Assembly (NCBI GenBank): GCA_905236275.1
Contig: CAJOPI010000287.1
Span: forward strand, 1-10,845
Origin: an uncultured Lachnospiraceae bacterium
GTDB lineage: Bacteria > Bacillota > Clostridia > Lachnospirales > Lachnospiraceae
DNA: 10,845 nucleotides
Reading direction: 5' to 3'
Shown here: piece after piece, positions 4,455 to 9,681 of the stretch
Layout: each line of letters opens with the position of its first letter
Numbering within the stretch: position 1 is the first letter of the stretch
Notes under the pieces: model-generated
The model's input: the letters and a program-made list of their open reading frames with translations, nothing else
The model's database searches: none
What the model was told of the DNA's origin: nothing
Program-made: the position numbers and the translations under genes

Positions 4455-5042
4455 ATGCGCAAGGGACGCAGAGCTGGTCTTTCATTTTATCAGAGAAAGA
4501 AGAAAATTTCGAATGAGAGAATAGCGGAGATAATGTCATGGGTTTTTGTGGTCCTGCTTGGTTTTCTGCTGTCCTTTTTCGTAATATATACTATCGGTGT
4601 AAAGACGACAGTTATGGGAGGTTCAATGGAAACGGGACTGCATAACGGTCAGGTTGTTTACATGAATAAGATAATTTACAGCTTCAAGGCTCCGGCAAGG
4701 GGTGATGTTGTTGTATTCAAACCTAATGGAAATGATAATGCCCATTATTCGATAAAAAGGGTTATTGCAGTGCCGGGCGATAAAATATACATATATGAAG
4801 GTGTTTTATATCTGAACGGTGAAGCACAGGAAGATATGTTTACCGATAAAATAGCTGATGCCGGAATTGCAGCTGATGAGATAACCCTGAAGGCTGACGA
4901 GTTCTTCCTTATGGGAGACAACGTTAACAATTCTGAGGACTCAAGGAGCCCGAATCTTGGAATAGTTATGCGAAATCATATAGTTGGTAAGGCATGGCTG
5001 CACCTGTCGAGCGGAAACGAAGGTATAGGAAGAGTAAAATAA
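4455..5042 (+). CDS. lepB: Type I signal peptidase (first copy)
   Basis: Signal peptidase I cuts signal peptides from exported proteins on the outer face of the membrane using a Ser-Lys dyad. This 195-residue protein has a basic N-terminus (residues 1-22), one transmembrane segment (about 23-49) and an extracytoplasmic S26 peptidase domain, the usual Gram-positive layout. The catalytic Ser is S57 in GGSMETGL and the Lys is K101 in SIKRVIAVPGDKI. The conserved GDNVNNSEDSR box lies at 154-164. The ATG has a near-ideal AAAGGAGG (4443-4450). It opens the second operon after the rplS terminator, and one base separates its stop from rbgA. A second, distinct signal peptidase gene follows rbgA. The promoter for this operon was not confidently found. 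Confidence 0.95.
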   Translation: MRKGRRAGLSFYQRKKKISNERIAEIMSWVFVVLLGFLLSFFVIYTIGVKTTVMGGSMETGLHNGQVVYMNKIIYSFKAPARGDVVVFKPNGNDNAHYSIKRVIAVPGDKIYIYEGVLYLNGEAQEDMFTDKIADAGIAADEITLKADEFFLMGDNVNNSEDSRSPNLGIVMRNHIVGKAWLHLSSGNEGIGRVK

Positions 5043-5905: not shown

Positions 5906-6424
5906 TTGAAAAAGGTATTCAGATTCAGCTTATACATACTGCTTGTATTGCTGCTTACAGGTCTTGTAAAAACCTTTGTGTTTCAAAGAGCTATAGTTGA
6001 CGGGGATTCCATGATGAATACCCTGAGCAACGGAGATAATCTGATTGTAAGCAAGCTAAATTCTTTCAACGGAAAATATAAGAGATTTGATATTGTGGTT
6101 TTTCCTTATGGCAATGCTGCTGATGTTTATTATATAAAGAGAATTATCGGGATGCCTGGAGAAACCGTAAAAATTGAGAACGGTTCTATATATATTGATG
6201 ACATTCCTCTTATAGAGCATTTTGGAAATGAAGCAATTAACAGCGGAGGACTTGCCTCAAATGAGCTTGTCCTTGCCACTGACGAATATTTTGTTCTCGG
6301 TGATAACAGGAATAACAGTACCGATTCGAGGTCGTCTCAGGTAGGAAATATTAAGAAAAAGGATATTATAGGCAAAGTGGTTTTGAGAATCTGGCCTCTG
6401 GATAGTTTTGGAAGAGTAAGATGA
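5906..6424 (+). CDS. lepB: Type I signal peptidase (second copy)
   Basis: This 172-residue S26-family signal peptidase is a paralogue of the copy upstream of rbgA. One transmembrane segment lies at about residues 7-26. The catalytic Ser is S35 in GDSMMNTL, the Lys is K78 in YIKRIIGMPGE, and GDNRNNSTDSR (132-142) completes the active-site box. The start is TTG 5906, placed 5-13 nt after the purine-rich GAGGGGGAAAGGG. There is no closer ATG that keeps the membrane segment, so TTG is favoured. It lacks the long basic N-terminal tail of the first copy, and the two differ in most residues outside the boxes, so this is an old duplication with possible substrate specialisation rather than a recent tandem copy. 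Confidence 0.94.
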   Translation: MKKVFRFSLYILLVLLLTGLVKTFVFQRAIVDGDSMMNTLSNGDNLIVSKLNSFNGKYKRFDIVVFPYGNAADVYYIKRIIGMPGETVKIENGSIYIDDIPLIEHFGNEAINSGGLASNELVLATDEYFVLGDNRNNSTDSRSSQVGNIKKKDIIGKVVLRIWPLDSFGRVR

Positions 6425-6440: not shown

Positions 6441-7106
6441 TTGACTAAGAAAGAAGAACGTGAGGAAAAGAGAAGATTAAAGCTGGAGGCTGAAAAGGAG
6501 AGAATGTACGCCCTCTTTTCATACGAAAGGGAATACGGGGAAAATCTTGCAATCTGTGGAATTGACGAAGTCGGAAGGGGACCGCTTGCGGGACCTGTTT
6601 ATGCCGCAGCCGTTATTTTGCCGAAGGACTGTGATATTCTCTATATAAATGATTCCAAGAAATTATCAGAAAAAAAGAGAGAAACCCTGTCAGCTGAAAT
6701 CAGGGAAAAAGCCGTCGCATGGGCTATCGGAACCGCAGATAACAAAAGAATCGACGAAATAAATATTTTGCAGGCAACTTACGAAGCCATGCGTGAAGCT
6801 ATTAAGAATCTTGGAATAAAACCCGATATATTATTAAACGATGCTGTTACAATTCCTCTTGTGGATATAAAGCAGATTCCGATAATTAAGGGTGATGCCA
6901 AAAGTGCTTCCATTGCCTCGGCAAGTATAATCGCCAAAGTAGCAAGGGATTCACTGATGGCAGAATATGCAAAGGAATATCCGGAATACGGTTTTGAAAG
7001 AAATAAGGGGTATGGTACGGCAGAGCATATTGCTGCAATAAAGGAATATGGCGTAACGCCGATACACAGGATGTCTTTTCTTAAATCGATTTTGGAGCGC
7101 GAATGA
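6441..7106 (+). CDS. rnhB: Ribonuclease HII
   Basis: RNase HII cleaves the RNA strand of RNA-DNA hybrids and removes single ribonucleotides misincorporated in DNA. The 221-residue product has the signature GIDEVGRGPLAGP with catalytic D42 and E43. Further acidic residues are D134 (LLNDA) and D152 (KGDAKSASIASASIIAKVARD), and the C-terminal YGFERNKGYGTAEH motif is also present. The chosen start is TTG 6441 with AAGGG nearby. It adds a lysine/glutamate-rich N-terminal helix (about 22 residues) before the first internal Met. A short N-terminal extension of this type occurs in other Firmicutes RNase HII proteins, but M23 cannot be excluded as the start. The TGA stop overlaps the next gene's ATG (ATGA). 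Confidence 0.96.
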   Translation: MTKKEEREEKRRLKLEAEKERMYALFSYEREYGENLAICGIDEVGRGPLAGPVYAAAVILPKDCDILYINDSKKLSEKKRETLSAEIREKAVAWAIGTADNKRIDEINILQATYEAMREAIKNLGIKPDILLNDAVTIPLVDIKQIPIIKGDAKSASIASASIIAKVARDSLMAEYAKEYPEYGFERNKGYGTAEHIAAIKEYGVTPIHRMSFLKSILERE

Positions 7107-8983
7107 ATATTACAATTAATGCTAATACCGGAATATATCAGACAGGTAATCAGATAGGCGGTGAAAGACAGGTGATAAGCGAGAGTTCTTCATCGCCTGC
7201 GGCACTTGTGAGCTCCGGAGACCTGTCTTCCCTTAAGGCGGGTGATATATTTACCGGTCAGATAAGCGGAATGAACGAGGACGGTTCTGTTGCGATACTC
7301 CTTGGAAACAACAAAATGCTTAATGCAAGGCTATCTTCAAATCTTTTGTTAAATCAGGGGCAGATTATGTCCTTTCAGGTGAAAGGAGCTACATCTTCCT
7401 CTTTGACACTCACTCCTTTATATGAAAATTTAGATAATAATTCGGCGGCGGCGAAAGCACTGATAGCGGCAGAACTGTCGGTAACAGCCGGAAATGTTGA
7501 TATGGTCAATGCGATGATGGAACGGGGACTCCCCATAGATTCCAATGCCCTGCAGGGGATGGCATCCGCAGCGTCGGCATATCCGACGGCAAATCCCGCA
7601 TCAATCGTACAGATGACCCAGCTTGGCATTCCACTGACTGAGGAGAATGTACAGCAGTTTGAAGCTTATAAGGAAGGGCAGTACAAGATTGCTGACGGAG
7701 TGGATAATCTTGCGAAGGGCTTCAGTGAGCTCAGTTCCGAGTCTGTTTCCATGAACAGGGCTGTCCTTGATATCTTTAATGAGAGTCCTTCCGAGGGATT
7801 CATGCAGGTTGTTAAGGAAGCGATGAATGGCGACAGTTCAAGGCTTTTGAGCCTGATAGAAAGCGGGGGGAAGCCGGAGGTAAATGCGGAGAGCCTTGTA
7901 AATCAGGAAACTGCTGAGACTTTTGTGAATACAGCTGCTAATGCTGCCACAGAGACAGTGAAGGGGGATGAGGGTGAGAATGTCCTTGATACGGTTAAAA
8001 ATAATCCGGAGGAATCCGCAGAAACTGCTCAAAGGGCGGAAAACGGCGAAATCCCCGAAGGACAGAAGAGTAATGAAAATACGCTTCAGCAAAATCCTGT
8101 AAATATCAGACCGGATAGTAATCTGAGTCTGCCCGGTCATGTGACGGATAATATTTTACAGCTTATGGGATCTGACGGGGCGAAGAACCTTGCTGAGCTT
8201 ATGAATAAGGCGGGTTATCCTGAAGAACTTACACAGAAAATTGCTGCGGGGGAAATATCCTCGAAACAACTCCTTGATATTATTCATGCTTCGATTAACG
8301 GAGGAAGCTCGAATTTCAAGGGCGAGCAGGCTTTGACTGCCTTGAAGGAAATGATAGGCTCCGAGCCCTACCAGCTCCTGATGCATAACGAGATTGTAAA
8401 ACAGTTTCTTTTGGAACCCGAAAATGTTTCAAATCAGGATAAAGTGAGGGAATATTATCAGCGTATAGCGGCGGAAACGGAGGAAGCGATAAATCTCCTG
8501 AAGGCGACGGGCAGAGGTGAGACAACTCTTGCGCAGGGCATGCAGAATCTGAAGGATAATATTGATTTTATGAATGGTATGAATATGGCAATGACCTATA
8601 TTCAGCTGCCTCTTAAAATGAATGATGCCGCTTCGCATGGGGATTTATATGTCTATACGAATAAAAAGAATCTTGCGAAGAAGGATGGGAATTTTTCGGC
8701 ACTTCTGCATCTTGATATGGAGCATCTGGGCACTATGGATGTGCATATAAGCATGAAGAATTATGATCATGTTACGACACACTTCTTTTTGCAGAAGGAG
8801 GAGCTTCTGGATTTTATCGAGGAGCATTTAGGAGAGCTCGATAAAGCACTTTCAAAGAGAGGTTACGTGATGCACTCGGATGTTTCTCTTAATAAGGAAG
8901 CAAAGGACGTTCCCGAGATAATGTTCAATAAGGGCAGTAACGAAAAGCTTATTCAGAAAACCGCATTTGACGTAAGGGCGTAA
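7103..8983 (+). CDS. FliK-like (flagellar hook-length control-like) protein, YlqG counterpart
   Basis: A 626-residue protein with no signal peptide or membrane segment. Three parts can be seen. Residues about 44-108 form a strand-rich module (LKAGDIFTGQISG...LLNQGQIMSFQV...LTLTPL), resembling an OB-like barrel. Residues about 110-265 look helical. Residues about 266-345 are a low-complexity Glu/Asn/Thr-rich linker. After another helical stretch, residues about 500-605 resemble the FliK C-terminal (Flg_hook) domain: LPLKMNDAASHGDLYVYTNK, then LLHLDMEHLGTMDVHISMK. FliK measures hook length and switches the flagellar export gate by contacting FlhB. This gene precedes a FlhB-C-like gene by 10 nt, the same order as ylqG-ylqH in Bacillus. 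ATG 7103 overlaps the rnhB stop, with GGAG at 7094-7097. Whether it takes part in flagellar export is unknown. Confidence 0.75.
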   Translation: MNITINANTGIYQTGNQIGGERQVISESSSSPAALVSSGDLSSLKAGDIFTGQISGMNEDGSVAILLGNNKMLNARLSSNLLLNQGQIMSFQVKGATSSSLTLTPLYENLDNNSAAAKALIAAELSVTAGNVDMVNAMMERGLPIDSNALQGMASAASAYPTANPASIVQMTQLGIPLTEENVQQFEAYKEGQYKIADGVDNLAKGFSELSSESVSMNRAVLDIFNESPSEGFMQVVKEAMNGDSSRLLSLIESGGKPEVNAESLVNQETAETFVNTAANAATETVKGDEGENVLDTVKNNPEESAETAQRAENGEIPEGQKSNENTLQQNPVNIRPDSNLSLPGHVTDNILQLMGSDGAKNLAELMNKAGYPEELTQKIAAGEISSKQLLDIIHASINGGSSNFKGEQALTALKEMIGSEPYQLLMHNEIVKQFLLEPENVSNQDKVREYYQRIAAETEEAINLLKATGRGETTLAQGMQNLKDNIDFMNGMNMAMTYIQLPLKMNDAASHGDLYVYTNKKNLAKKDGNFSALLHLDMEHLGTMDVHISMKNYDHVTTHFFLQKEELLDFIEEHLGELDKALSKRGYVMHSDVSLNKEAKDVPEIMFNKGSNEKLIQKTAFDVRA

Positions 8984-8993
8984 AGGTGGGAAT

Positions 8994-9341
8994 ATGGCAG
9001 GACAGAACATTTATAAGAAAAATGAAAAATCAAAGGTTAAGACTGCCGTAGCGATTGCTTATGATCCTAAAGATGCGGCACCTACAGTTATAGCTTCCGG
9101 TAAAGGTGCGGTAGCAGACAAGATTATAGAAAAAGCAAAGGAGTCGGATGTCCCTGTGCATCGTGATGATAAGCTTGCCGAAACCCTTTCAAAGCTCGAT
9201 ATCGGTGATATGATACCGCCGGAGCTTTATGAAGTGGTTGCGGAGGTTCTGGTATTTGTGGACAGGATGGACCGGCTAAAGGCTAAAATGGATGGAGTAA
9301 AAGGTAATATTGAAAAAAGAAGGCGCAAAGGTTTTAGGTAG
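8994..9341 (+). CDS. FlhB C-terminal domain homologue (YlqH/FhlB family)
   Basis: This 115-residue protein corresponds to the cytoplasmic C-terminal domain of FlhB, the export-gate component whose self-cleavage switches flagellar substrate specificity. The match is AVAIAYDPKDAAPTVIASGKG, then IIEKAKESDVPVHRDDKLAETL and DIGDMIPPELYEVVAEVLVFV, each aligning with conserved FlhB blocks. It has no FlhB membrane helices. The autocleavage site NPTH, which in FlhB directly precedes the YAVALKYDP block, is replaced by SKVK (13-16), so cleavage is not expected. It likely mimics the part of FlhB that remains after cleavage. AAGGTGG lies just before the ATG. It sits directly after the FliK-like gene and its end overlaps yraN by 32 nt. 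Basic tail KRRRKGFR. Confidence 0.88.
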   Translation: MAGQNIYKKNEKSKVKTAVAIAYDPKDAAPTVIASGKGAVADKIIEKAKESDVPVHRDDKLAETLSKLDIGDMIPPELYEVVAEVLVFVDRMDRLKAKMDGVKGNIEKRRRKGFR

Positions 9342-9681
9342 GACAGGAGAAGAAAAGGCTGCGGACTTTTTAAGGAAACAGGGATGCTCGGTGATAGAGC
9401 GGAATTTCGCAGTTAAAAGCGGAGAAATAGATATAATTTATCTTGATGGTGATACGATCTGTTTTGGAGAAGTCAAGTACAGGAAGAATGACAGCTGCGG
9501 CGGAGGAGAAGCTGCCGTAAATTATAAGAAACAAAGGCAGATAAGCAGGACATCTGACTATTATCGTATGCAAAACGAACTTGGAGAGGATCTTTCGTAT
9601 CGCTTTGATGTAGTTGCAATTTCAGACACAAAAATAAACTGGGTAAAAAATGCCTTTTATTATATACCTCGGAGAGTGTAG
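9310..9681 (+). CDS. yraN: YraN family (UPF0102) nuclease-fold protein
   Basis: A 123-residue member of the YraN/UPF0102 family, with a restriction-endonuclease-like fold. The candidate active site is GEIDII (E39, D41) followed by FGEVKYRK (E54, K56), the PD-(D/E)xK pattern. The N-terminal GRTGEEKAADFLRKQGCSVIERNF and the C-terminal RFDVVAI are family hallmarks. In this family a substrate has not been firmly established; a role in DNA processing or recombination is suggested by the fold. The only in-frame start that keeps the N-terminal helix is TTG 9310, with AAAAGG 6 nt upstream, so the gene overlaps the FlhB-like gene by 32 nt. Close linkage of yraN with rnhB is common in bacteria. Confidence 0.9.
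   Translation: MKKEGAKVLGRTGEEKAADFLRKQGCSVIERNFAVKSGEIDIIYLDGDTICFGEVKYRKNDSCGGGEAAVNYKKQRQISRTSDYYRMQNELGEDLSYRFDVVAISDTKINWVKNAFYYIPRRV

Follow-up and report, generated by a model that had tools for sequence, protein, structure and literature searches.

A FliK-like protein and a free-standing FlhB-type domain as a candidate auxiliary switch for flagellar export

We analysed a stretch of 10,845 nt from an uncultured Lachnospiraceae bacterium (contig CAJOPI010000287.1; hereafter the window), in which two adjacent genes of a housekeeping operon encode a FliK-like protein of 626 residues and an FlhX-type protein of 115 residues, the latter a free-standing form of the cleaved C-terminal domain of FlhB. 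We take ylqG and ylqH to be the names of these genes at the equivalent place in Bacillus. Our results indicate that the pair very probably acts as an auxiliary switch for flagellar export, in support of one option offered by an earlier reading of the window from its sequence (the original prediction). With more caution, we favor the view that it is an ancient paralogous switch pair that modulates flagellar export specificity beside the canonical FliK and FlhB. The genome of the window also encodes a full-length FlhB (C394) and another FliK (C94); G, L, C and f numbers are our handles for genomes, loci, contigs and families. Three overlapping genome samples were used, comprising 200 genomes of the family, 249 of the phylum and 146 of the class.

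The FlhX-type protein corresponds to the cleaved domain of FlhB

The 115-residue open reading frame (ORF) matched the Pfam family PF01312 with 73.4 bits (cut-off 24.4, E 2.6e-20), exclusively at positions 261-335 of 335, and its predicted fold was similar to experimental structures of the cytoplasmic domains of FlhB and related injectisome proteins, the best match being 3b1s_D (E 1.9e-06, rmsd 1.1). The small protein had originally been read as the cytoplasmic domain of FlhB; the fold and the family match bear this out, but only the cleaved fragment and not the whole domain is present, because the protein starts downstream of the NPTH site at which FlhB cleaves itself. Both the transmembrane domain and the NPTH motif that characterize FlhB are missing, and an NPTH-type motif was found in none of 80 loci, none of 74 FlhX rows and none of 142 FlhX frames. 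The protein has what characterizes the FlhX type, namely the cleaved-domain fold, the docking pocket, no membrane part and a full FlhB encoded in the same genome. The NCBIfam model TIGR00789 (flhB_rel, 'FlhB-like flagellar biosynthesis protein') matched it with 104.2 bits (E 3.2e-30), below the cut-off of 117.35, which was passed in one of the 249 phylum genomes; the window protein is therefore treated as a relative of this model and not as a named member. The gene and its altered and conserved sites lie as follows.

8994..9341, + strand: FlhX-type gene, a free-standing FlhB cleaved C-terminal domain of 115 residues (PF01312, fold match, no NPTH)
9078..9083, + strand: A29-P30, equivalent to A286/P287 of Salmonella FlhB in the substrate-docking pocket (alignment of 142 FlhX)
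9186..9191, + strand: L65-S66, which lack the FlhB aromatic (position of Salmonella Y323) and mark a one-residue deletion (alignment)
9240..9251, + strand: A83 to L86, equivalent to the pocket residues A341 and L344 (alignment)

These sites were compared in a joint alignment of 142 FlhX and 46 FlhB sequences, onto which the numbering of Salmonella FlhB was transferred by eye. The equivalents of the docking-pocket residues are kept in FlhX (A286 in 138, P287 in 142, A341 in 135 and L344 in 131 of the 142), whereas the Y323 column is aromatic in 3/142 FlhX against 45/46 FlhB and the column adjoining it is deleted in 142/142 FlhX. A lysine-rich stretch occupies the place of the FlhB linker and NPTH in FlhX. 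The docking pocket and the bypass region (274-323) of Salmonella FlhB are described in PMC13344023, and PMC3040844 cites Y323D as a suppressor of fliK. At the level of sequence, the comparison showed FlhX as the post-cleavage domain of FlhB, lacking the cleavage site, keeping the pocket and changed at the position of a Salmonella mutation that bypasses FliK.

The FliK-like protein carries a switch domain and a C-terminal tail

As had been predicted, the upstream protein contains a C-terminal Flg_hook domain (PF02120), which the Pfam search placed at residues 521-591 (E 2.2e-11, 43.8 bits against a gathering cut-off of 29.8); a scan of the protein with NCBIfam gave no match. One structural match was the substrate-specificity domain of PscP (5cuk; E 0.05, rmsd 2.0 over 67 columns), and the profile of the window's FliK-like group matched that of 12 canonical FliKs with a probability of 89.8 (E 1.8e-06). 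The window's group of neighbors is thus, as judged by its Pfam and profile matches, genuinely FliK-like. A comparison with PDB sequences returned a single match, ribosomal S4 at E 0.79, which is chance level and was rejected. Flg_hook above the cut-off and the pentapeptide at the exact C terminus agree with FliK, and a location with flagellar genes does not apply here; we use the name FliK-like and not FliK, since a FliK proper would also be secreted and set hook length. The gene is laid out as follows.

7103..8983, + strand: FliK-like gene, 626 residues (ORF; Flg_hook above the Pfam cut-off)
7247..7420, + strand: N-terminal OB-like beta-barrel, residues 49-106 (AlphaFold2 model, weak OB-fold structural matches, profile)
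7892..8110, + strand: low-confidence stretch, residues 264-336, probably disordered (pLDDT <50)
8663..8875, + strand: Flg_hook switch domain, residues 521-591 (Pfam, structural and profile matches)
8966..8980, + strand: exact C-terminal pentapeptide FDVRA, residues 622-626 (conservation, tail statistics)

The predicted N-terminal barrel gave weak structural matches to OB-fold proteins, including IF-1 and S1. In a first round, a profile of the barrel matched 79/126 FliK-like neighbors and 0/21 full-length canonical FliKs; in a second round, which was trained partly on the matches of the first, it matched 97/126, some of the FliK-like frames ending at contig edges, and again none of the 21. Besides these proteins, the genome of the window has a third Flg_hook frame on C166 (L094, 1-3009), which is 1002 residues long, stays open across the whole contig and could belong to a large third FliK-type protein. 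Flg_hook frames of 1108 and 1241 residues were seen in two relatives (G143, G111).

The pentapeptide is FDVRA in the window protein, VDYSA in the other FliK of the same genome and VDIFA in FliK of E. coli K-12. Across 37 relatives, F622 never varies and D623 is nearly invariant. The nearly invariant columns among 33 diverse FliK-like proteins were L579 of the switch domain and D623 of the tail, although the invariance of D623 is partly an artefact because this set was chosen for D or N at position -4. Residues were counted from the C terminus in four groups, as given below.

76 close FliK-like relatives: -4 D/E 76; -3 aromatic 0; -2 K/R 71; strict motif 65
50 other FlhX neighbors: -4 D/N 49; -3 aromatic 5 (all F); -2 K/R 33; strict motif 39
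41 canonical FliKs from FlhX-bearing genomes: -4 D/N/E 36; -3 aromatic 35 (Y 32); -2 K/R 1; strict motif 28
20 canonical FliKs from FlhX-lacking genomes: -4 D/N/E 20; -3 aromatic 9; -2 K/R 6; strict motif 18

Position -3 of the FliK-like proteins is mostly aliphatic, and the strict motif ended 1/574 other ORFs. In two genomes (G327, G376) the canonical FliK has no such tail (L147, ending EEEEI; L148, ending ENMEV), whereas the FlhX neighbor carries one (L097, GLDLRV; L107, GVDIRI), and the function of the tail may here have passed to the FliK-like protein. A relaxation of the canonical tail after loss of FlhX was also considered, Tyr being found in 9/20 FlhX-lacking against 32/41 FlhX-bearing cases. 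This idea was dropped because family f56 has a non-Tyr tail both with and without FlhX.

The tail also bears on a different role for the small protein, that of a cytosolic decoy or carrier which buffers early substrates or FliK tails and so tunes the timing of the switch. The conserved pocket residues, the lysine-rich stretch at the place of the FlhB linker and NPTH, and the lack of a membrane part and of a cleavage site would all suit such a protein, but by itself this role leaves the tail-bearing neighbor and its tail consensus unexplained, and we regard it as improbable.

FlhX occurs in genomes with flagellar genes

In the family sample, PF01312 matched in 102/200 genomes and Flg_hook in 100/200. 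FlhB was found at E<=1e-40 in 99 genomes, of which 97 have a second PF01312 match and two (G044, G096) do not. The second matches were taken as FlhX by count; among the matches listed, which cover 50 of the 97 and G197, all are short and C-terminal, each starting near profile position 254-262, reaching the profile end and lying in a frame of 88-171 residues. The short form occurs in the remaining 101 genomes only in G197; the matches in G035 and G054 are weak. In the phylum sample, TIGR00789 matched at 1e-5 in 210/249 genomes. Resolution of the 56 single-match genomes by PF01312 gave 53 with FlhB alone, one with FlhB in two pieces (G315) and two with FlhX and pieces of FlhB (G222, G318). FlhX, assigned by count for most genomes, is present in 156 and absent in 54 of the 210, and all 156 carry FlhB or a piece of it. 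Outside the 210 are G362, G375 and G357, with Flg_hook and no PF01312, and G417, with a weak PF01312 match (4.5e-12). In the class sample, PF01312 matched in 65/146 genomes, one of them weakly (G223), and FlhX without FlhB occurred only in G500 and G544. Flagellin is present in G197, G222, G500 and G544. Weak PF01312 matches in G035, G054 and G223 were set aside, neither FlhA nor flagellin being found there. FlhB of the class sample lies in frames of 611-648 residues in G534, G474, G553, G516, G569, G496, G468, G518 and G476, lengths compatible with FliR-FlhB fusions.

In none of the three samples was FlhX found in a genome without flagellar genes. Presence and absence, the check that had been proposed for the pair, therefore followed the flagellar genes, and a flagellum-independent role, which had been listed among the options, is unlikely. 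Such a role would tie the pair to the housekeeping operon and to ribosome, signal recognition particle (SRP) or membrane protein biogenesis. It draws on the position downstream of ffh, rimM, trmD, rplS and rnhB and on the resemblance of the N-terminal barrel to OB folds such as IF-1 and S1, but FlhX is also sited elsewhere in several lineages, and together with its restriction to genomes with flagellar genes this leaves the housekeeping role very improbable. For the link to ribosome or SRP functions that had been suggested, we found nothing beyond the operon position and the OB-like barrel, which is itself no sign of function.

The same counts address the idea that the pair is what remains of a duplicated flagellar locus, now decaying and without function. 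Absence from 54 of the 210 phylum genomes with FlhB would agree with decay, whereas seven columns are invariant among 84 FlhX and, by match count, 97 of the 99 FlhB-bearing family genomes keep the gene, so that we give this idea hardly any credence.

FlhX and a tail-bearing neighbor are found together

At least two Flg_hook genes were present in 96/156 FlhX-bearing genomes against 1/54 of those that have FlhB but lack FlhX (p 1e-16 by Fisher's test, uncorrected for relatedness). The figure of 96 is probably low because Pfam misses FliK-like proteins. The sole FlhX-lacking genome with at least two Flg_hook genes is G420, and three of the 54 (G341, G345, G418) have none.

Adjacency was scored in 142 FlhX loci, a non-random set made up of 80 close relatives of the window protein, 30 top-scoring phylum hits and others that were chosen: the hand-picked L127-L146, whose genomes have a single Flg_hook hit; L086-L091 and L096, which belong to family genomes; and L236-L240, which serve as within-family contrasts. 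All 142 were kept in the count. A neighbor was counted if it had at least 150 residues, lay on the same strand and ended in a loose form of the tail motif. Such a neighbor was present in 131/142 loci, against 8/574 other ORFs with the loose motif; a script found 130 of them, 126 upstream of FlhX and 4 downstream, and the remaining one is L030, where the gap is wider than the distance limit. The 11 misses comprise L033, L054, L076 and L082, with rnhB beside FlhX; L063, L073 and L124, at contig edges or unclear; and L127, L141, L144 and L146, with no motif. Independent loss, which had been named as a test of the partnership, is uncommon and one-sided, since 4/142 loci have FlhX without a FliK-like neighbor and 1/54 genomes a second Flg_hook gene without FlhX.

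The gene order is reversed in L131, L134, L239 and L240, of which L239 and L240 were first taken as partnerless FlhX until the other flank revealed the reversed order. In L239, a flagellin gene (900-2504, Pfam) is immediately beside the reversed pair, on the other side of FlhX from the FliK-like gene. The pair has left the housekeeping site in family genomes that show few Flg_hook hits, with neighbors identified by Pfam: it is located between a flagellin-PilZ pair and cheA-cheW-cheR in L088, adjoins flgM, a FlgN-like ORF below the cut-off and flgK in L091, lies near a rod-protein ORF and fliE in L089, and adjoins cheA in L086. The distance between FlhX and flhB is 16-44 kb in 13 genomes that were picked for closeness, and elsewhere the two are far apart (about 210 kb in G212, about 805 kb in G233). 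These data demonstrate that the housekeeping position is not essential for FlhX and its tail-bearing neighbor. The conserved linkage of the original prediction accordingly holds for the pair, which is widely conserved, but its site varies, given the flagellar or chemotaxis surroundings and the reversed order. A natural FliK-FlhX fusion, which would have been evidence of partnership, was also sought, and none with both Pfam domains occurred among the matches listed in a profile search of 71 proteins.

The adjacency can be set against an explanation in which the two genes are no partners: FlhX would be a back-up ('spare part') only, the FliK-like protein a second ruler or switch acting on full-length FlhB, and the two neighbors through shared regulation. 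A 2006 study of H. pylori HP1575 by Wand et al., which has 'spare part' in its title, reportedly claimed the protein as a stand-in for the cleaved domain of FlhB. In addition to that title, the persistence of FlhX without a FliK-like neighbor in four of the 142 loci favors the back-up explanation, as does the combination of a tailless canonical FliK with a tailed FliK-like protein in G327 and G376. On the other hand, a second Flg_hook gene without FlhX occurs in just 1/54 genomes and adjacency survives both reversed order and changed surroundings, and we therefore consider the explanation unlikely.

Neighbors in other lineages and the age of the pair

Eight FlhX neighbors were scanned with Pfam at E up to 1, and L239 passed the Flg_hook cut-off (31.9 bits) while L146 gave E 0.17. 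The group of L097, L105, L107 and L138 matched the profile of the window's group with a probability of 96.2 (E 2.1e-09) and that of canonical FliK with a probability of 18.4 (E 0.0013). In trees, FlhX and FlhB were separated by one split (76 against 46 rows) with an SH-aLRT value of 92, which is not starred and comes from few columns. A single split between FliK-like and canonical FliK proteins was not rejected (p-AU 0.898, 62 against 61 rows), likewise with few columns. The trees fit two old, parallel duplications, short of proof.

Genomic context in the window

Read by eye, the ORFs of the window are ordered ylxM-ffh-rpsP-KH-rimM-trmD-rplS-lepB-rbgA-lepB-rnhB-[FliK-like]-[FlhX]-yraN-acyP, followed at the end of the window by an ABC ATPase gene on the opposite strand. 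The pair had been placed between rnhB and yraN with no flagellar gene nearby, which is true within the window: none was seen among its ORFs. The two flanking genes are as follows.

6441..7106, + strand: rnhB, the upstream neighbor, named from sequence reading
9310..9681, + strand: yraN, the downstream neighbor, likewise named from sequence reading; as listed, its ORF shares 32 bases with the FlhX gene

The start codon region of the FliK-like gene overlaps the rnhB stop (7103-7106). Two signal-peptidase-like genes (4455-5042, 5906-6424) flank rbgA, and both labels are present in the loci of 60/80 relatives, some of them truncated by contig ends.

Discussion

That the tail of the FliK-like protein acts on FlhX is suggested by the adjacency of the two genes, their co-occurrence and the changes that match between them, and we assign it roughly even chances. 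The model for such an action is taken from Salmonella, where the cleaved domain of FlhB disappears in a FliK-dependent manner at hook completion and loss of this domain and Fluke locks late secretion; a 2026 model proposes that FliK uses its last five residues to act on this domain and eject it (PMC13344023). A text search of that article gave no mention of FlhX. By analogy, the tail of the FliK-like protein would engage FlhX, either free or docked at the gate, and the pair would set or reset early and late export specificity alongside the canonical FliK and FlhB. The likeliest role of FlhX would be that of a soluble stand-in for the cleaved domain that docks early (rod and hook) substrates, and it could refill the docking site once the original domain is gone. 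That FlhX refills the site of the lost FlhB domain is a tentative suggestion, with the odds somewhat against it. More speculative is a complete second switch in flagellate Firmicutes: its FlhB half would be made already cleaved and free, and its FliK half would be a barrel protein, possibly cytosolic. FlhX would refill the site once canonical FliK had ejected the cleaved domain, the FliK-like tail would release FlhX again, and the hook-to-filament switch, supposed to be one-way, would be resettable. We think this full scheme rather doubtful.

Several observations weigh against a switch formed by the two proteins. About a quarter of the phylum genomes with FlhB (54/210) have no FlhX, and the pair is therefore dispensable for flagella. 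In L033, L054, L076 and L082, FlhX and yraN come straight after rnhB, FlhX having been kept without a FliK-like neighbor (4/142). The argument from co-loss is weakened because adjacent genes can go in one deletion. The AlphaFold2 model shows the C-terminal tail of the FliK-like protein as disordered, the canonical tails of family f56 (VDLRA, VNLRV) resemble FliK-like tails with FlhX present, and strict covariation of position -3 of canonical FliK (the tail Tyr) with FlhB residue 323 was not found. With regard to the flagellar restriction, a search for FlhA found none in G197, G222 and G500, which we presume to reflect assembly gaps. Furthermore, six of the eight scanned neighbors (L086, L088, L091, L097, L131, L144) gave no Flg_hook match at E up to 1. 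The L086-L091 group matched the window's group weakly, although in the Flg_hook register (probability 33.8, E 4.3e-04), and its match to canonical FliK was unconvincing (probability 4.8, E 0.0084), so that its FliK-like label rests on tail and position, as does that of the other neighbors outside the well-matched groups.

Taken as an auxiliary switch, the pair would be a natural duplicate of the FliK-tail and FlhB-domain elements, widespread in the phylum and altered at key sites. It offers a comparative test of the 2026 ejection model (PMC13344023) for the old question of type III export specificity, and two little-studied genes, ylqG and ylqH, would gain a specific hypothesis of a flagellar role.

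Comparison with known systems

That FlhX is a flagellar protein is already known. FlhX of Helicobacter (HP1575, flhB2) and Campylobacter (Cj0848c) is likewise a free-standing FlhB C-terminal domain in flagellates; HP1575 is listed as flhB2 in PMC2864241 and flhX is named as Cj0848c in PMC4894983. In Nitratiruptor, flhX-fliK lies outside the main flagellar cluster (PMC9321776), and FlhX is counted as a flagellar export protein in Actinobacteria (PMC10746217). Brief mentions of ylqG or ylqH occur in PMC11523185 and PMC9235176, and in the literature covered, with most subscription journals outside its scope, we recognized no work on the function of the Firmicutes pair and nothing on its tail, barrel domain or co-loss. 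The window protein differs from FlhX of the TIGR00789 type in scoring under the curated cut-off. With the cleaved C-terminal domain of FlhB, FlhX shares the fold and the docking pocket, and it differs from FlhB in having no transmembrane part and no NPTH, in the deletion beside position 323 and in the rarity of an aromatic residue there. FliK and the FliK-like protein have in common the Flg_hook domain and a pentapeptide at the exact C terminus, whereas the FliK-like protein differs in its non-flagellar operon here, its N-terminal barrel and the residues at -3 and -2 of the tail. The injectisome proteins SctP and SctU (PscP-PscU) also form a two-part switch, and the PscP specificity domain and SctU domains were among our structural matches; SctU, unlike FlhX, is anchored in the membrane.

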